From positions 682,001-746,000 of the forward strand of contig NZ_CP095491.1 of NCBI RefSeq assembly GCF_023028105.1: DNA of 64,000 bases, read 5' to 3'. Shown here piece by piece: positions 56,508-62,801 of the stretch (the stretch's first letter is position 1; each line of letters starts with the position of its first letter). The DNA comes from Halosolutus gelatinilyticus. Its GTDB lineage: Archaea; Halobacteriota; Halobacteria; Halobacteriales; Natrialbaceae. The position numbers were made by a program, and so were the translations under genes. The notes under the pieces are model-generated. The model was not told where the DNA came from. It saw only the letters and a program-made list of their open reading frames with translations, and did not search any database.

Positions 56508-57839
56508 TCATCCGAGGAACGCGAACGAGAGAATCAGTAGGGCACAGACCAGCGCGCCCGACAGCGTCGCCAGGAAGTTCACGCCCTGGTTGCCAAGCAG
56601 CGGCCCCTCGAGGGTCGCACCGAGGAGGCTGTCGACGGTCATGCCGACGAAGCCCGCCGCGACGATGACGGCGCCGCCCAGGACGCCGACCTCGGGGAAG
56701 AGCCAGTAGGAGATGCCGGCGACGACCGCCGCCCCCGCGACGCCGGCGATCTCGCCCTGCCAGGTGACCCCGCCGTCGGTCCCGGGCTCGACCGGTTCGA
56801 ACGTCGTGATCAGCCGCGGCGTCTCGAAGACGCTGCCGATCTCGCTCGAGAGCGTGTCGCTCATCGCCGTCGCGACCGAGCCCGTGAAGGCGAAGAGGAA
56901 CAGCCTGGGATCGAGGTCGGCCGGCAGGATCGCCGCGGAACTGGCGGCGTAGCCCAGGACGGCGGCGAGGGCGACGGCGGCGTTGCCGAGGACGTTTCCG
57001 CTGCCGCGGGCCCCGTTGTTGTCCTCGGCGACGCCGAGGGCTTCCTTCTGTTCGTAGCGGAACTTCGTCGAGAGCCCGCCGATCGCGAAAAAGGAGATGA
57101 GCACGACGAACCAGCCGTAGCCGCCGAGGACGATCGTCAACAGCCCGAGTAGGATTCCGGTGAGCATCCCCGCGATCGAGGCCGTTTCGAGGGCGTAGGA
57201 CGTGTATCCCAGCGCGACGGTGACCGCGAGGGCGAGGAGGATCTCGGCCGAACCGAGGACGGGTTGGAGTTCCGCGAGCAGCCACAGCAACAATCCGACC
57301 GAAAGCATGACCACGGGATCGTCGTAGAGCCAGAGCACGTCGCGAAGCAGGGCCGCAAGCAGCGCGCCGCTGGCCGCGAGAAACAACAGCGTGGGGAGCG
57401 CCGATCGGACGGCACCGCCCTGGAGGGCGATCGTGAGGGCCTGTCCGGCGACGGCGCCGGCGGTCGCTCCCAGACAGAAGCCGGCTACCCGGACGACGTC
57501 GTCGTCCGTCCGTCCGCGGACGAGTTGTTCCGTCAGGTTACCGTATCCGATCAGGAGGACGGTGCCCGCGAAGACCGCGATCGACATCGACGACTGCGTC
57601 GCGATGACGCCGAGGGTGATCCCCGCCAGGACGAACGTGATTAGCCCGTAGAGGCGGCTGTCCTCGTAGTCGCCCGGGTAGGCGAGCAGATCGAAGAGCG
57701 GACCATCGGTGACGACGAACGCCCCCAGTAACACGACCGCAGCGAGCGACGCCGCGGCCCGCGGCCCGACGAGCGGAACGACGAGCGAGAGCGTACAAAG
57801 GATCGCGAAGACGCCGGCTCGCCGAACGGGTGCTGTCAC
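56508..57839 (-). CDS. DUF92 family membrane protein
   Basis: A 443-residue, highly hydrophobic protein of roughly 12 helices. The C-terminal half has the DUF92 (TIGR00297) blocks: FRYEQKEALGVAEDNNGARG, SGNVLGNAAVALAAV, and the conserved SVATAMSDTLSSEIGSVF and GTDGGVTWQGEIAGV. Family members may be CDP-alcohol- or polyprenol-related membrane enzymes; plant homologues act in phytol phosphate metabolism. The start is GTG 57839, with TATA-like GGTTAAAG ~30 bases upstream. Confidence 0.87.
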   Translation of the reverse strand: MTAPVRRAGVFAILCTLSLVVPLVGPRAAASLAAVVLLGAFVVTDGPLFDLLAYPGDYEDSRLYGLITFVLAGITLGVIATQSSMSIAVFAGTVLLIGYGNLTEQLVRGRTDDDVVRVAGFCLGATAGAVAGQALTIALQGGAVRSALPTLLFLAASGALLAALLRDVLWLYDDPVVMLSVGLLLWLLAELQPVLGSAEILLALAVTVALGYTSYALETASIAGMLTGILLGLLTIVLGGYGWFVVLISFFAIGGLSTKFRYEQKEALGVAEDNNGARGSGNVLGNAAVALAAVLGYAASSAAILPADLDPRLFLFAFTGSVATAMSDTLSSEIGSVFETPRLITTFEPVEPGTDGGVTWQGEIAGVAGAAVVAGISYWLFPEVGVLGGAVIVAAGFVGMTVDSLLGATLEGPLLGNQGVNFLATLSGALVCALLILSFAFLG

Positions 57840-58046: not shown

Positions 58047-58652
58047 GTGGGCCTGTACGAACGTTATCTCGCCTCCCGAATCCGTCGCCACGAGATCGAC
58101 CCGCCGGAGCACGTCGCGCTGGTCATCACCGAGCGCGACCTCCTCGAACGGGGCGCCTACGAGACGCTGGTCGAGTTCTTCGACTGGGCGTTCGAGTACG
58201 CCTCGCGCGTGACCGTCTACGTAAGCGTCCTCGACGCCGACGCGGTGCCGCCGTTGCGACGCGAACTCGAGTCGATCGACGCGCCGCGGGAGGTGGCGGT
58301 TCGCGGACCCGACGACAGCGCGCCGGCCGACGCCCCGATTCAGATCGGGATCGGACTCGGGGGCAAACACGAGTTCACGAGCGCCGTCCGAACCCTCGCG
58401 GAGAGCGTCGACGCCGGCGACCTCGACCCCGACGCGATCGACGACGAACACGTCGAGCGACACCTCGTCTTCCCCTCGGAGCCGGATCTGGTGATCAAGA
58501 CCGGTGCCGAGCGGCTCTCGGATTTCATGATCTGGCAGTCGGTGTACTCGGAACTGTACTTCACCGACGTCAACTGGCGGGACTTCCGCAAACGCGACTT
58601 CCTGCGCGCGGTCCGCGAGTTCTGCAACCGATCGCGGCGGTTCGGGCGGTAG
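58047..58652 (+). CDS. cis-prenyltransferase (UppS) homologue without the catalytic signature
   Basis: A 201-residue UppS-fold protein. The C-terminal half is strikingly well kept: DLVIKTGAERLSDFMIWQ and YSELYFTDVNWRDFRKRDFL, containing the substrate-binding and dimer-interface residues. The N-terminal catalytic loop is lost: HVALVITERDLLERGAYETL stands where active enzymes have D-G-N-R-R. It starts at GTG 58047. An active-looking relative is encoded 760 bases away at 59414-60346. It may be the noncatalytic partner in a heteromeric enzyme; see findings. Confidence 0.8.
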   Translation: MGLYERYLASRIRRHEIDPPEHVALVITERDLLERGAYETLVEFFDWAFEYASRVTVYVSVLDADAVPPLRRELESIDAPREVAVRGPDDSAPADAPIQIGIGLGGKHEFTSAVRTLAESVDAGDLDPDAIDDEHVERHLVFPSEPDLVIKTGAERLSDFMIWQSVYSELYFTDVNWRDFRKRDFLRAVREFCNRSRRFGR

Positions 58653-58676
58653 CCGTCCCTCGCCCGGCCTGCGGGA

Positions 58677-59033
58677 TCAGCGACCCCACCGATCGCGGTC
58701 GTCGTCCTGACGATCCCGAGTAACTCCCCAGCGATCGCGATCCTCATCGCGTCGATCGGCGGCCCCCCGGCGATCGCTCGTCCCGCGGTCTCCGCGCCCC
58801 CTCTCGTCCGCGCCCTCGTCGAGGGCTACGTCGTCGTAAATATCGATGTGGTGGACCGCACCGGGCGAGAGCAATCGGTTTCCCTCGAGTTCGAGCCAAC
58901 CGTTCGGATGCACCAGGATCGGCCCTTCGTAGAGCACGTCGTCCGCGTCGGCGCCGTCGTAGATCACGACGTCCTCGTAGGCGAGCGTCGATCGACTGGA
59001 CCGTCCGTGGGGGAGGAATCCGTTGATGCCCAT
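58677..59033 (-). CDS. hypothetical protein with Asp/Arg repeats
   Basis: A 118-residue protein. The first ~70 residues form a globular domain, MGINGFLPHGRSSRSTLAYE followed by LVHPNGWLELEGNRLLSPG and HHIDIYDDV. The tail is Arg/Asp-rich with imperfect copies of a DRDRWG unit, likely disordered. It lies between the two cis-prenyltransferase-family genes on the opposite strand from the first. Function unknown. Confidence 0.6.
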   Translation of the reverse strand: MGINGFLPHGRSSRSTLAYEDVVIYDGADADDVLYEGPILVHPNGWLELEGNRLLSPGAVHHIDIYDDVALDEGADERGRGDRGTSDRRGAADRRDEDRDRWGVTRDRQDDDRDRWGR

Positions 59034-59113
59034 ATCGACACTACCGCGTCATCGACTAATTACGTTGGGTCGAGACACACCGGATCGCGCGTTTGCAGTA
59101 CCGATCCGATCGG

Positions 59114-59332
59114 TCACCCGTTCATCGACGGCTCGACGTACGCGAGAAACGTCGCGAGGACGCCGACGACGACGAGCAGGAATCCGATGCCGATCGCGAG
59201 AAACTCCGCTGGCATCGTCTGTTCGGACGCCGACGCCGGCTGTCGAACGACGCCGTTCGCCGCGAGTCCGAGTAAGACGGCGACGCCGAGTCCCGTCGTG
59301 CCGACGCCGGACGCCAGCAGGCGACTGTCCAT
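59114..59332 (-). CDS. small two-helix membrane protein
   Basis: A 72-residue protein with two helices, GVGTTGLGVAVLLGLAANGVV and FLAIGIGFLLVVVGVLATFL, separated by a short polar loop. The start is ATG 59332. It lies between the uppS gene and the Asp/Arg-repeat gene in the same direction and could share the uppS transcript. No family recognised. Confidence 0.6.
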   Translation of the reverse strand: MDSRLLASGVGTTGLGVAVLLGLAANGVVRQPASASEQTMPAEFLAIGIGFLLVVVGVLATFLAYVEPSMNG

Positions 59333-59413
59333 ACCGAGCCTTCGCCGCGGTCCGGATTGTGAGTTTCGGTCGGCGCGGCCCGATCGGCGGCCGCGATCGG
59401 TCCGCGGCCGCGA

Positions 59414-60346
59414 TCAGTCGGCGGTCTTCGTCCCCGACTCGATCGCGTCGAGTTCCGCGTCGTCGGGACGTTCGGCCGTCGGCAGCGAGTCGCGGAACCG
59501 ATCGACGATCGATCGCGCCTCGGCGAGTTCGGTGTCGCTCATCGCCCCGAGGAGAGCGAGCGCGCGGCGGGCGCGGGTCCGCCGCCACGACTCCTCGCGG
59601 GACTCGTAGGTGCGGATGCCCCGCAGAAAGTCGGTCTTCGAGAACTCCGGCCAGTAGGGTGTACAGAAGAAGACGGCCGCCTCGTTGCCGTTGGCGTGCC
59701 ACGGCAGGAAGTTCGAGGTTCGTTCCTCGCCGCCGGGTCGAATAATCAGGTCGACGTCGCGTACCGGCTGGTCGTGCAGCCGTCGTTCGATCGCCTCGAC
59801 GTCGATCGCGTCGGGGTCGAGGTCGCCGGCGTCGACCTCAGCTGCGACCCCGCGGGCGGCTTCGAGCAGCCGCGAGCGGCCGCCGTAGGCGAGCGCGATG
59901 TTGAGCACGAACTGATCGTAGTCGCGGGTGCGCCGTTCGGCGTACTCGACGGCGTCCTGCACCCGTTCGGGAAGCATCTCGATCTCGCCGATCGCGCGGA
60001 TGCCGACTTCGTTCTCGTGGACGCGGTCCGCGTCCGCGAACTCGTGGAGCTTCTCACAGAGGAGGTCGAACAGCGCCTCGTTTTGCTCGGGCGGGCGGTC
60101 GAAGTTCTCCGTCGAGAAGGTGTACAGCGTCAGCTCCTCGACGCCCACGTCCTGACACCACTCGAGAACGCGTTCGGTCGTTTCGGCGCCCGCGCGATGG
60201 CCCTCGTGAGCATCGTCCCCCTTGCGACGGGCGTACCGACGGTTGCCGTCCTGGATCACCGCGACGTGTGTCGGCGCGCCGGAAATCTCTCTGGCGAGCA
60301 ATCGCTCGTAAACAGCGTCGACGCGCCCGCGAAGCCACCGCCTCAT
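59414..60346 (-). CDS. uppS: cis-prenyltransferase (undecaprenyl-diphosphate-synthase family)
   Basis: A 310-residue enzyme. The catalytic signature QDGNRRYARRKG has Asp33, Asn35, Arg36 and Arg37; TLYTFSTENFDRPP, LNIALAYGGRSRL and DLIIRPGGEERTSNF are the remaining blocks. The last block continues LPWHANGNEAAVFFCTPYWPEFSKTDF, which differs from the bacterial WQ-Y-ELYFTD consensus that the paralogue at 58047 keeps. It makes long-chain cis-polyprenyl diphosphate for lipid carriers used in glycosylation. The C-terminal ~50 residues are an acidic extension. Confidence 0.93.
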   Translation of the reverse strand: MRRWLRGRVDAVYERLLAREISGAPTHVAVIQDGNRRYARRKGDDAHEGHRAGAETTERVLEWCQDVGVEELTLYTFSTENFDRPPEQNEALFDLLCEKLHEFADADRVHENEVGIRAIGEIEMLPERVQDAVEYAERRTRDYDQFVLNIALAYGGRSRLLEAARGVAAEVDAGDLDPDAIDVEAIERRLHDQPVRDVDLIIRPGGEERTSNFLPWHANGNEAAVFFCTPYWPEFSKTDFLRGIRTYESREESWRRTRARRALALLGAMSDTELAEARSIVDRFRDSLPTAERPDDAELDAIESGTKTAD

Positions 60347-60511: not shown

Positions 60512-60916
60512 ATGGCAGACGTACTCGACAACGATCTCTACCAGCGGACGAAAGCCCTGCTCGAACCCGGCGACGTCGACCTCAACGGCGCGATCGTCCA
60601 CACCGAGTACGGCGGACAGGAGGACGTCCGGATGATGCAGGCGACGATCGACGTCGGCGATATCATCGCCGAACACGCCGGGCACGATCCGACGGACTGC
60701 TACGTCTACTCGGGCAACGACGATCCCGACTTCTCGTCGAACCAGCACCAGGGGCTGACCTTAGACGGCGAGGAGTTCGTCTGGGAGTGTCAACAGCTCC
60801 TGCGCAACGGCACGTTCGACATCGTCATCTACTACGAGGCCAGCGCCGATCACGAGGCGATCCTCGAGGACGTTCGGGAGCTGGGATTCGACGTAACCGG
60901 CGTTGAAGGCGACTGA
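60512..60916 (+). CDS. DUF5778 family protein
   Basis: A 134-residue acidic protein: DNDLYQRTKALLEPGDVDLN, GAIVHTEYGGQEDVRMMQAT and FDIVIYYEASADHEAILEDV. The sequence matches what I know as the haloarchaeal DUF5778. It is compact, with no membrane helix or known catalytic motif. It reads the same way as the heme operon that starts 110 bases after it, but a shared role is not evident. Confidence 0.8.
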   Translation: MADVLDNDLYQRTKALLEPGDVDLNGAIVHTEYGGQEDVRMMQATIDVGDIIAEHAGHDPTDCYVYSGNDDPDFSSNQHQGLTLDGEEFVWECQQLLRNGTFDIVIYYEASADHEAILEDVRELGFDVTGVEGD

Positions 60917-61027
60917 TCGGCACTCGACGCTTCGACTCGGTTTTCCGCGCTCTCGATCGGTCTGCGGTTTTCTCGTTCCGATCGGCGTCCCGGTTCGTTT
61001 ATGGCGCGTGCCTGCCGACTACCGGGT

Positions 61028-62107
61028 ATGAGTACGGACGTCGACCTCGCGGACCGCGAGCGGGCGGTCGTCAACGCCTTTCAGGGCGGGTTCCCCGTCG
61101 TCGAACGGCCGTTCGAACCCGCCGCGTCCGCGATGCGCGATCGCGGGGTCGACATCGACGCGACGGAGCTGCTCGAGACGATCCGCGAGCTGGACGATCG
61201 GGGCGTCCTCTCGCGGTTCGGCCCGCTCGTGAACGCCCAGGAGATCGGCGGCGCGGCGACGCTGGTCGCGATGCACGCGCCCGACGATCGGTTCGACGAG
61301 ATCGTCGACGCGGTGAACGCCCGCCGCGAGGTGGCGCACAACTACGAGCGCGAACACCCGTACCTGAACGTCTGGTTCGTCGTGAGCGTTCCAGCGGAGG
61401 ACCGCGTCGAGGCGGTGCTCGACGCGATCGAGGACGAAACCGGCCAGGAGACGTACAACCTTCCGAAACGACGGGAGTTCCGCGTCGAGGCGAAGTTCTA
61501 CGTCGACGGCCCGCTCGACGGCTCCGACGGGGAGCCCGCGGGGATCGACCTCTCGAATCTCGGGCCCGACGCGGCGCCCACCGACGGCGCGACGCTGTCG
61601 CCGGCCGAGCGCGACCTCGTCCTCGAAATTCAGGACGGCTTGCCGCTATCCGAGACGCCCTACGCGGACGTCGCCGACGCGATCGGTCGGACGCCCGAGC
61701 GTGTGCGCGAGACGATCAAACGATTCGAACGCGAGGGGAAGATCCGCCGAATCGGCGTCGTGCCAAACCACTACGCGCTCGGCTACACGGAAAACGGGAT
61801 GACGGTCTGGAACGTGCCCGACGACCTCGTCGGCGAGGTCGGCTCCGAAGTCGCCGCGCTGCCCTTCGTCACGCACTGCTACGAGCGGCCGCGCCACGAG
61901 GGCGTCTGGCCGTACAACTTCTTCGCGATGACCCACGGCCGCAGCGAGGCGGAGAGCCGGCGTCGGATCGCGCAGGTCCGCGAGACGATGGCCGACCACT
62001 GGGACGTGACCGACGACGACTGGGACTCGCTGTTCTCGACGAAGATATTGAAGAAGACTGGCATCCGATTAGCCGAGCGCGCCGACGCCAATACCGTATC
62101 GGAATGA
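61028..62107 (+). CDS. ahbAB: fused siroheme decarboxylase (AhbA-AhbB)
   Basis: A 359-residue protein with two Lrp/AsnC-like halves: residues ~1-165 (RAVVNAFQGGFPVVERPFEP, LSRFGPLVNAQEIGGAATLVAM) and ~190-359 (ERDLVLEIQDGLPLSETPYAD, KIRRIGVVPNHYALGYTENG, HCYERPRHEGVWPYNFFAMTHG). AhbA and AhbB normally form a heterodimer that removes two acetate carboxyls from siroheme to give 12,18-didecarboxysiroheme. Here they are one chain. ATG 61028 is chosen because the HTH starts directly after it. The precorrin-2 dehydrogenase and hemA genes follow immediately, supporting the role in heme synthesis. Confidence 0.9.
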   Translation: MSTDVDLADRERAVVNAFQGGFPVVERPFEPAASAMRDRGVDIDATELLETIRELDDRGVLSRFGPLVNAQEIGGAATLVAMHAPDDRFDEIVDAVNARREVAHNYEREHPYLNVWFVVSVPAEDRVEAVLDAIEDETGQETYNLPKRREFRVEAKFYVDGPLDGSDGEPAGIDLSNLGPDAAPTDGATLSPAERDLVLEIQDGLPLSETPYADVADAIGRTPERVRETIKRFEREGKIRRIGVVPNHYALGYTENGMTVWNVPDDLVGEVGSEVAALPFVTHCYERPRHEGVWPYNFFAMTHGRSEAESRRRIAQVRETMADHWDVTDDDWDSLFSTKILKKTGIRLAERADANTVSE

Positions 62108-62144
62108 CAGCTAGCGATCGATCACGGAGGGACGAGAACACCGG

Positions 62145-62801
62145 ATGATTCCGCTCTTTCACGACTTCTCCGGCGCGAGGGTGCTCGTCTTCGGCGGCGG
62201 CCCCGTCGGCGCCCGCAAGGCGCGGCGGTTCGCCCGCGAAGCCGACGTGCTCGTGGTCAGCCCCGCCTTCGCCGATCGGGACTTCGGCGGGTCGGAGCGG
62301 ATCCGGGCCGCGCCGGAGCCGGCGGACGTGCCGGGGTGGATCGATCGCGTCGACCCGGCGCTTGTCGTCGCCGCGACCGACGACGCGGCGATCAACGAGG
62401 CCGTCGCGAGCGCGACCCGGGAGCGCGGGATCCTCGTCAACCGAGCGGACGAGTCCGGCGGGCGAGCGCCGGGGAGCGTCGTCGTCCCGGCGACCGTCCG
62501 CGAGGATCCGGTCGTCGTGGCGATCGCGACCGGCGGAACGGCGCCCGCGCTGAGCAAGTACCTTCGGCGGGAACTCGAAGAAACGCTTTCGGGTGCCGGC
62601 GAAATGGCCGAGCTCTGCTCGCGACTTCGAGCCGAACTCAAAGCGCGCGACGTGCCGCCGGCGCGCCGGCGCGAGATCGTCACCGATGTCGTCAATTCTC
62701 CGGCCGTTTGGACAGCTTTACGTACCGGTGTTCCAAATTATCCCCAAGTGATCGAGGACGTGCTCGGGGAGGAGCCGGCTACCGGGGGTGACCGCTCGTG
62801 A
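62145..62801 (+). CDS. precorrin-2 dehydrogenase/sirohydrochlorin ferrochelatase
   Basis: A 218-residue protein of the Met8/CysG-N type: ARVLVFGGGPVGARKARRFA is the NAD-binding motif, LVVAATDDAAINEAVASATR and RGILVNRADESGGRAPGSVVVPA follow. The C-terminal helical domain (SGAGEMAELCSRLRAELKAR) dimerises. It oxidises precorrin-2 to sirohydrochlorin and may insert iron, supplying siroheme for the decarboxylase upstream. A GGAGG lies 15 bases before ATG 62145. Its stop overlaps the hemA start by four bases. Confidence 0.9.
   Translation: MIPLFHDFSGARVLVFGGGPVGARKARRFAREADVLVVSPAFADRDFGGSERIRAAPEPADVPGWIDRVDPALVVAATDDAAINEAVASATRERGILVNRADESGGRAPGSVVVPATVREDPVVVAIATGGTAPALSKYLRRELEETLSGAGEMAELCSRLRAELKARDVPPARRREIVTDVVNSPAVWTALRTGVPNYPQVIEDVLGEEPATGGDRS

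Follow-up and report, generated by a model that had tools for sequence, protein, structure and literature searches.

Paralogous cis-prenyltransferase genes of Halosolutus gelatinilyticus as the probable subunits of one heteromeric enzyme

The window analyzed here is a stretch of 64,000 nucleotides from the genome of Halosolutus gelatinilyticus (NZ_CP095491.1, positions 682,001 to 746,000), and it holds two cis-prenyltransferase-like reading frames, both confirmed at the positions given by an earlier, sequence-only reading of the same DNA. One (58047..58652, plus strand) starts with a GTG that is common to haloarchaeal relatives in the alignment and encodes a 201-aa non-catalytic, NgBR/NUS1-like subunit (the partner), in which the Pfam Prenyltransf match is limited to the C-terminal half (profile 117–219, E = 1.2e-25). 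The other (59414..60346, minus strand) encodes a 310-aa catalytic, DHDDS/UppS-like subunit that matches the same profile from 1 to 216 (E = 3.7e-66), and these two are the only Prenyltransf genes in the 4.76 Mb genome. A DUF92 membrane protein is encoded divergently from the partner (56508..57839, minus strand), in a conserved context that suggests a functional link. Two small minus-strand reading frames between the pair (58677–59033, 118 aa, and 59114–59332, 72 aa, the latter with two hydrophobic stretches) gave no Pfam match, and beyond the catalytic subunit (60512–62801, plus strand) lie genes for a DUF5778 protein, a siroheme decarboxylase-like protein of the AhbA/B type and a precorrin-2 dehydrogenase-like protein.

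The sequence-only reading had proposed that the two proteins complement each other, and its observations on the motifs hold for the most part. In the 58047 protein the catalytic Asp and Arg are absent, the DGNRR position being occupied by VITERDL (58122..58142, plus strand; T28, E29, R30, D31 and L32 are invariant in 51 haloarchaeal sequences), while the canonical C-terminal block WQSVYSELYFTDVNWRDFRK is present as described. The catalytic DGNRR motif is found at residues 33–37 of the 59414 protein (60236..60250, minus strand) and in 144 of 144 catalytic subunits. The same protein was also credited with an atypical C-terminal block, PWHANGNEAAVFFCTPYW; the sequence is correct, but it is no sign of a damaged enzyme, all substrate-binding residues having been kept. 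Alignment places these residues in the region RPGGEERTSNFLPWHANGNE...WPEF (59642..59755, minus strand), after which comes a C-terminal extension that has no RxG; R203, R209, S211, and E222, corresponding in E. coli to R194, R200, S202, and E213, are invariant in 53 haloarchaeal sequences. Judged from the alignment, the real lesion of the 59414 protein is the missing C-terminal RxG.

That element is carried instead by the 58047 protein, which terminates in SRRFGR, and the prediction is that the motif R198-F199-G200 (58638..58646, plus strand) reaches into the active site of its catalytic counterpart. R198 and G200 are invariant in 51 haloarchaeal sequences, and RxG stands in the last eight residues of 118 of the 119 partners collected, the remaining one having KFG. 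Conversely, DGN[R/G] is absent from all 119 partners and the canonical RRFG tail ends none of the 144 catalytic subunits, chance R-x-G triplets being present in the C-terminal extensions of some catalytic relatives. A complementary split that recurs in every family examined is not attributable to chance, and this division of RxG, the element with which human NgBR reaches into the active site of DHDDS, is the best evidence obtained here, although the sequence-only reading did not name it. The haloarchaeal TERDLL motif, by contrast, is not conserved outside Halobacteria in the phylum alignment, whereas RxG is, so that the functional core is probably the C-terminus and not TERDLL. In one family (f15, five loci) the catalytic subunits seem to have lost the acidic residue that corresponds to E. 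coli UppS E213 and have PWQS..YFCD instead of PWxANGNE; their partners retain RxG.

Co-occurrence across Halobacteria, which had been named as a check on the pairing, is near-obligate. A Prenyltransf match was found in 390 of 391 Halobacteria genomes and at least two matches in 388 (by our own count from the search table, 373 genomes have two, thirteen have three, two have four, two have one, and one has none); the shortfalls comprise a fragmented assembly with the partner only (G072) and two genomes that are only 82–88 per cent complete (G381, G389). The partner profile matched in all 377 good-quality Halobacteria genomes, a count that at E values up to 1e-20 could, for a handful of divergent genomes (e.g. 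G218, 9.8e-23), take in the catalytic paralogue, and the Pfam counts were used beside it for that reason. The sequence-only reading had named absence of the 58047 protein from close relatives among what would refute it, and virtually all relatives have the partner. Among 120 genomes sampled across the phylum, 114 gave matches, nearly always two, one running from profile position 1 to ∼216 and the second starting late and reaching 219. The six genomes without either subunit are five of one family and one genome that is 76 per cent complete, and almost every one of the 120 has both genes or neither. The two-subunit form appears standard across nearly all of the archaeal phylum. Five genomes of family f18 have no Prenyltransf gene, catalytic or partner; two genomes of family f9 (G195, G226) have four matches each, perhaps a second pair. 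In one genus group of Halobacteria (g30, e.g. G038 and G065) the partner is more divergent, its profile match falls into separate pieces in some genomes, and, wherever positions are listed for both genes, it no longer adjoins the catalytic gene.

The linkage of the two genes is likewise conserved. Of the 80 named haloarchaeal loci, 75 have the catalytic gene downstream of the partner, in convergent orientation and no more than 5 kb away, with a median gap of 424 bases; of the five that lack a catalytic gene, two are short contigs. Convergent neighbours are also found in eleven families (f12, f14, f17, f21–f23, f25, f26, and f28–f30). The earlier proposal of a pair encoded at one locus stands in the sense of convergent neighbours. 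Given that the genes converge, this is conserved linkage with no implication of co-transcription, and an operon was rejected on gene orientation. The DUF92 gene is divergent and upstream of the partner at 76 of the 80 loci, and is a neighbour also in families f12, f17, f22, and f25. DUF92 includes the plant phytyl-phosphate kinase VTE6, and since the gene lies beside polyprenyl synthesis, a role as lipid-phosphate kinase is a reasonable guess, which would make its product a candidate polyprenol or polyprenyl-phosphate kinase.

Single-chain models generated with AlphaFold2 give both subunits the cis-prenyltransferase fold. The model of the 58047 protein (mean pLDDT 83.9, pTM 0.82) begins with a polar helix (residues 3–14) and a strand (22–28), and among solved structures it is the DHDDS chain (A) of the human enzyme that it matches best (Z 14.7, rmsd 3.5, 192 residues aligned), with other cis-prenyltransferases within one Z unit; the fold comparison gives one chain per entry, and the NgBR chain is thus outside the match list. 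The model of the 59414 protein (mean pLDDT 81.1) superposes on Bacillus subtilis UppS with Z 26.1, rmsd 1.9 and 226 residues aligned, and on DHDDS with Z 25.8. Residues 210–222 of this model, which are mostly conserved, have pLDDT below 50, and it is suggestive, though only that, that such low values would fit a region that becomes ordered on dimerization.

The closest parallels to this division of labour are human NgBR (NUS1)/DHDDS and yeast Nus1/Rer2, in which a catalytic subunit without RxG is joined by a non-catalytic subunit with a terminal RxG. The RxG tail of human NgBR crosses the subunit interface and helps to form the DHDDS active site, and mutation of this motif lowers activity and causes disease (PMC7573591); in yeast Nus1, Asn replaces the RxG Arg (PMC7573591, PMC7839719). 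The likeness extends to an extra N-terminal helix in the catalytic subunit, with a C-terminal extension in haloarchaea, and to the archaeal profiles, each of which can be aligned with its human counterpart almost from end to end. For the partner profile, the alignment to human NUS1 runs through the last residue (17–210 of 210, E = 3e-11), and bacterial enzymes outscore NUS1 against this profile owing to the conserved C-terminal half. For the catalytic profile DHDDS is the best solved match (249 bits vs 242 for E. coli UppS) and reaches further at the N-terminus than the E. coli enzyme, a likeness of profiles that does not settle descent. The archaeal partner differs in its N-terminus: no hydrophobic stretch was found ahead of the domain in the 58047 protein, where NgBR/NUS1 has a membrane segment, and a single origin of the two systems is conjectural. 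Homodimeric bacterial UppS is alike in fold and catalytic positions, and the ...NRERRFG end of the E. coli enzyme resembles that of the 58047 partner, but there the catalytic residues and RxG stand together in a single chain, a combination that neither of the two proteins here has.

Within the same archaeal phylum, a heteromeric cis-prenyltransferase of two paralogous subunits, MM_0618 and MM_1083 of Methanosarcina mazei, makes C45–50 products (PMC8131916, citing Emi et al. 2019). In our sample, Methanosarcinaceae-like genomes have a single catalytic type, which is missing RxG, and a single partner type, which carries it, and some also have an enzyme like MM_0014 of M. mazei. In the 2019 M. 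mazei study MM_0618 and MM_1083 were reportedly almost without activity when either was alone. By elimination, the two types should be MM_0618 and MM_1083, and the haloarchaeal pair very probably belongs to the same paralogue system; the two genes are far apart in the Methanosarcinaceae-like genomes sampled, whereas the haloarchaeal genes are convergent neighbours. One such genome (G410, loci L119–L122) has two catalytic copies, one MM_0014-like enzyme, and one partner ending RKFGK instead of RRFGK. No description or assay of the haloarchaeal pair was found in the open literature searched, subscription papers apart.

A tree of 99 sequences, whose root was not inferred and which has some very long branches, sets the 47 partners apart by a single branch (support 99) and the 50 catalytic subunits by another (support 82), and its two MM_0014-like sequences make up a third group. 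Methanosarcinaceae-like members fall in both the partner and the catalytic branches (MM_0618 and MM_1083 themselves are not among the sequences compared). Separation by single branches means that the split is old, and, as far as these sequences go, the tree shows one old split without its direction. It is tempting to suppose that the division into catalytic subunit and RxG donor had a single origin, at the root of the phylum or earlier, and that eukaryotic NgBR/DHDDS is its descendant, which came with the archaeal contribution to the eukaryotic cell and did not evolve afresh, but this is tentative and on balance doubtful; a literature search on cis-prenyltransferase and Asgard returned no paper.

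Taken together, the complementary losses, the co-occurrence, the neighbourhood, the cis-prenyltransferase fold of each chain, and the precedent of the M. mazei heteromer within the phylum support the proposal of a haloarchaeal heteromeric cis-prenyltransferase. The sequence features that mark the heteromeric type are found at this locus, namely DGNRR and the substrate-binding Arg and Ser in a catalytic subunit that is missing RxG, and a co-occurring homologous subunit that ends in RxG without the catalytic Asp and Arg. We put the probability that the 58047 and 59414 proteins are subunits of one such enzyme at roughly 0.9; physical association, dependence on both chains, product and chain length are what we infer. 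The two-chain enzyme would elongate an allylic prenyl diphosphate with isopentenyl diphosphate, yielding a polyprenyl diphosphate as the precursor of a dolichol-type glycosyl carrier. The 59414 protein would bind both substrates and Mg2+ through D33, R36/R37, N81, R84, R203, R209, S211, and E222, and would be unable to complete its own active site. The 58047 protein would dimerize with it and thread its C-terminal Arg-Phe-Gly-Arg tail over the interface into the active site, an insertion modelled on that of NgBR into DHDDS and on the reciprocal subunits of homodimeric UppS. In homodimeric enzymes the RxG Arg coordinates Mg2+ via water and the main chain of the Gly contacts the acceptor diphosphate (PMC8131916).

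It might be supposed instead that the catalytic protein works as a homodimer, and that the 58047 protein is a catalytically inactive paralogue that does something else, such as sensing prenyl diphosphates or regulating another enzyme. A homodimer of either chain is conceivable, given that the single-chain models resemble ordinary cis-prenyltransferases, and the catalytic subunit, with every substrate-binding residue kept, might hold some activity alone; M. mazei MM_0014, moreover, is an active homodimer without RxG and makes C25–40 products (PMC8131916). However, MM_0014-like proteins (recognized as such because one of them matched 7caq and 7vq9) form a separate branch with a TLGG tail of their own, and the two families in which they were seen always had the pair as well. 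Exactly complementary losses, chains that are kept or lost together in nearly every genome, and a conserved RxG that in a dead paralogue would have no evident purpose outside an active site make this arrangement improbable.

Other readings concern the 58047 protein itself. The near invariance of TERDLL in Halobacteria, and the position of K151 and R156 still near the diphosphate site, could be those of an active prenyltransferase of another type, whose own residues replace DGNRR; given that TERDLL is unconserved outside the class where RxG is conserved, that the catalytic Asp and Arg are missing, and that the N-terminal half is shortened (201 aa), this is very improbable. The loss of catalytic residues is also what a decaying duplicate would show, yet full-length identity of 69–89 per cent across Halobacteria and presence across the phylum leave that idea hardly any credence, and a pseudogene was rejected on conservation across class and phylum.

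The two-subunit arrangement was already known in archaea from one methanogen, and here it appears to be the rule across nearly the whole of an archaeal phylum. Haloarchaeal N-glycosylation depends on dolichol phosphate. The main text of a 2021 review of open Haloferax gene assignments mentions neither dolichol nor the enzyme that makes its chain (PMC8305020), and the heteromeric reading would assign this synthesis to an enzyme encoded by two genes, in a group amenable to genetics, with the prediction that the gene annotated UppS is insufficient alone. An apparent broken copy, the 58047 protein, would be recast as the donor of part of an active site, and small soluble partners without a membrane anchor may serve as material for studying the NgBR/DHDDS mechanism. 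Whether the eukaryotic division of labour between NgBR and DHDDS was inherited from archaea would also become a testable question.
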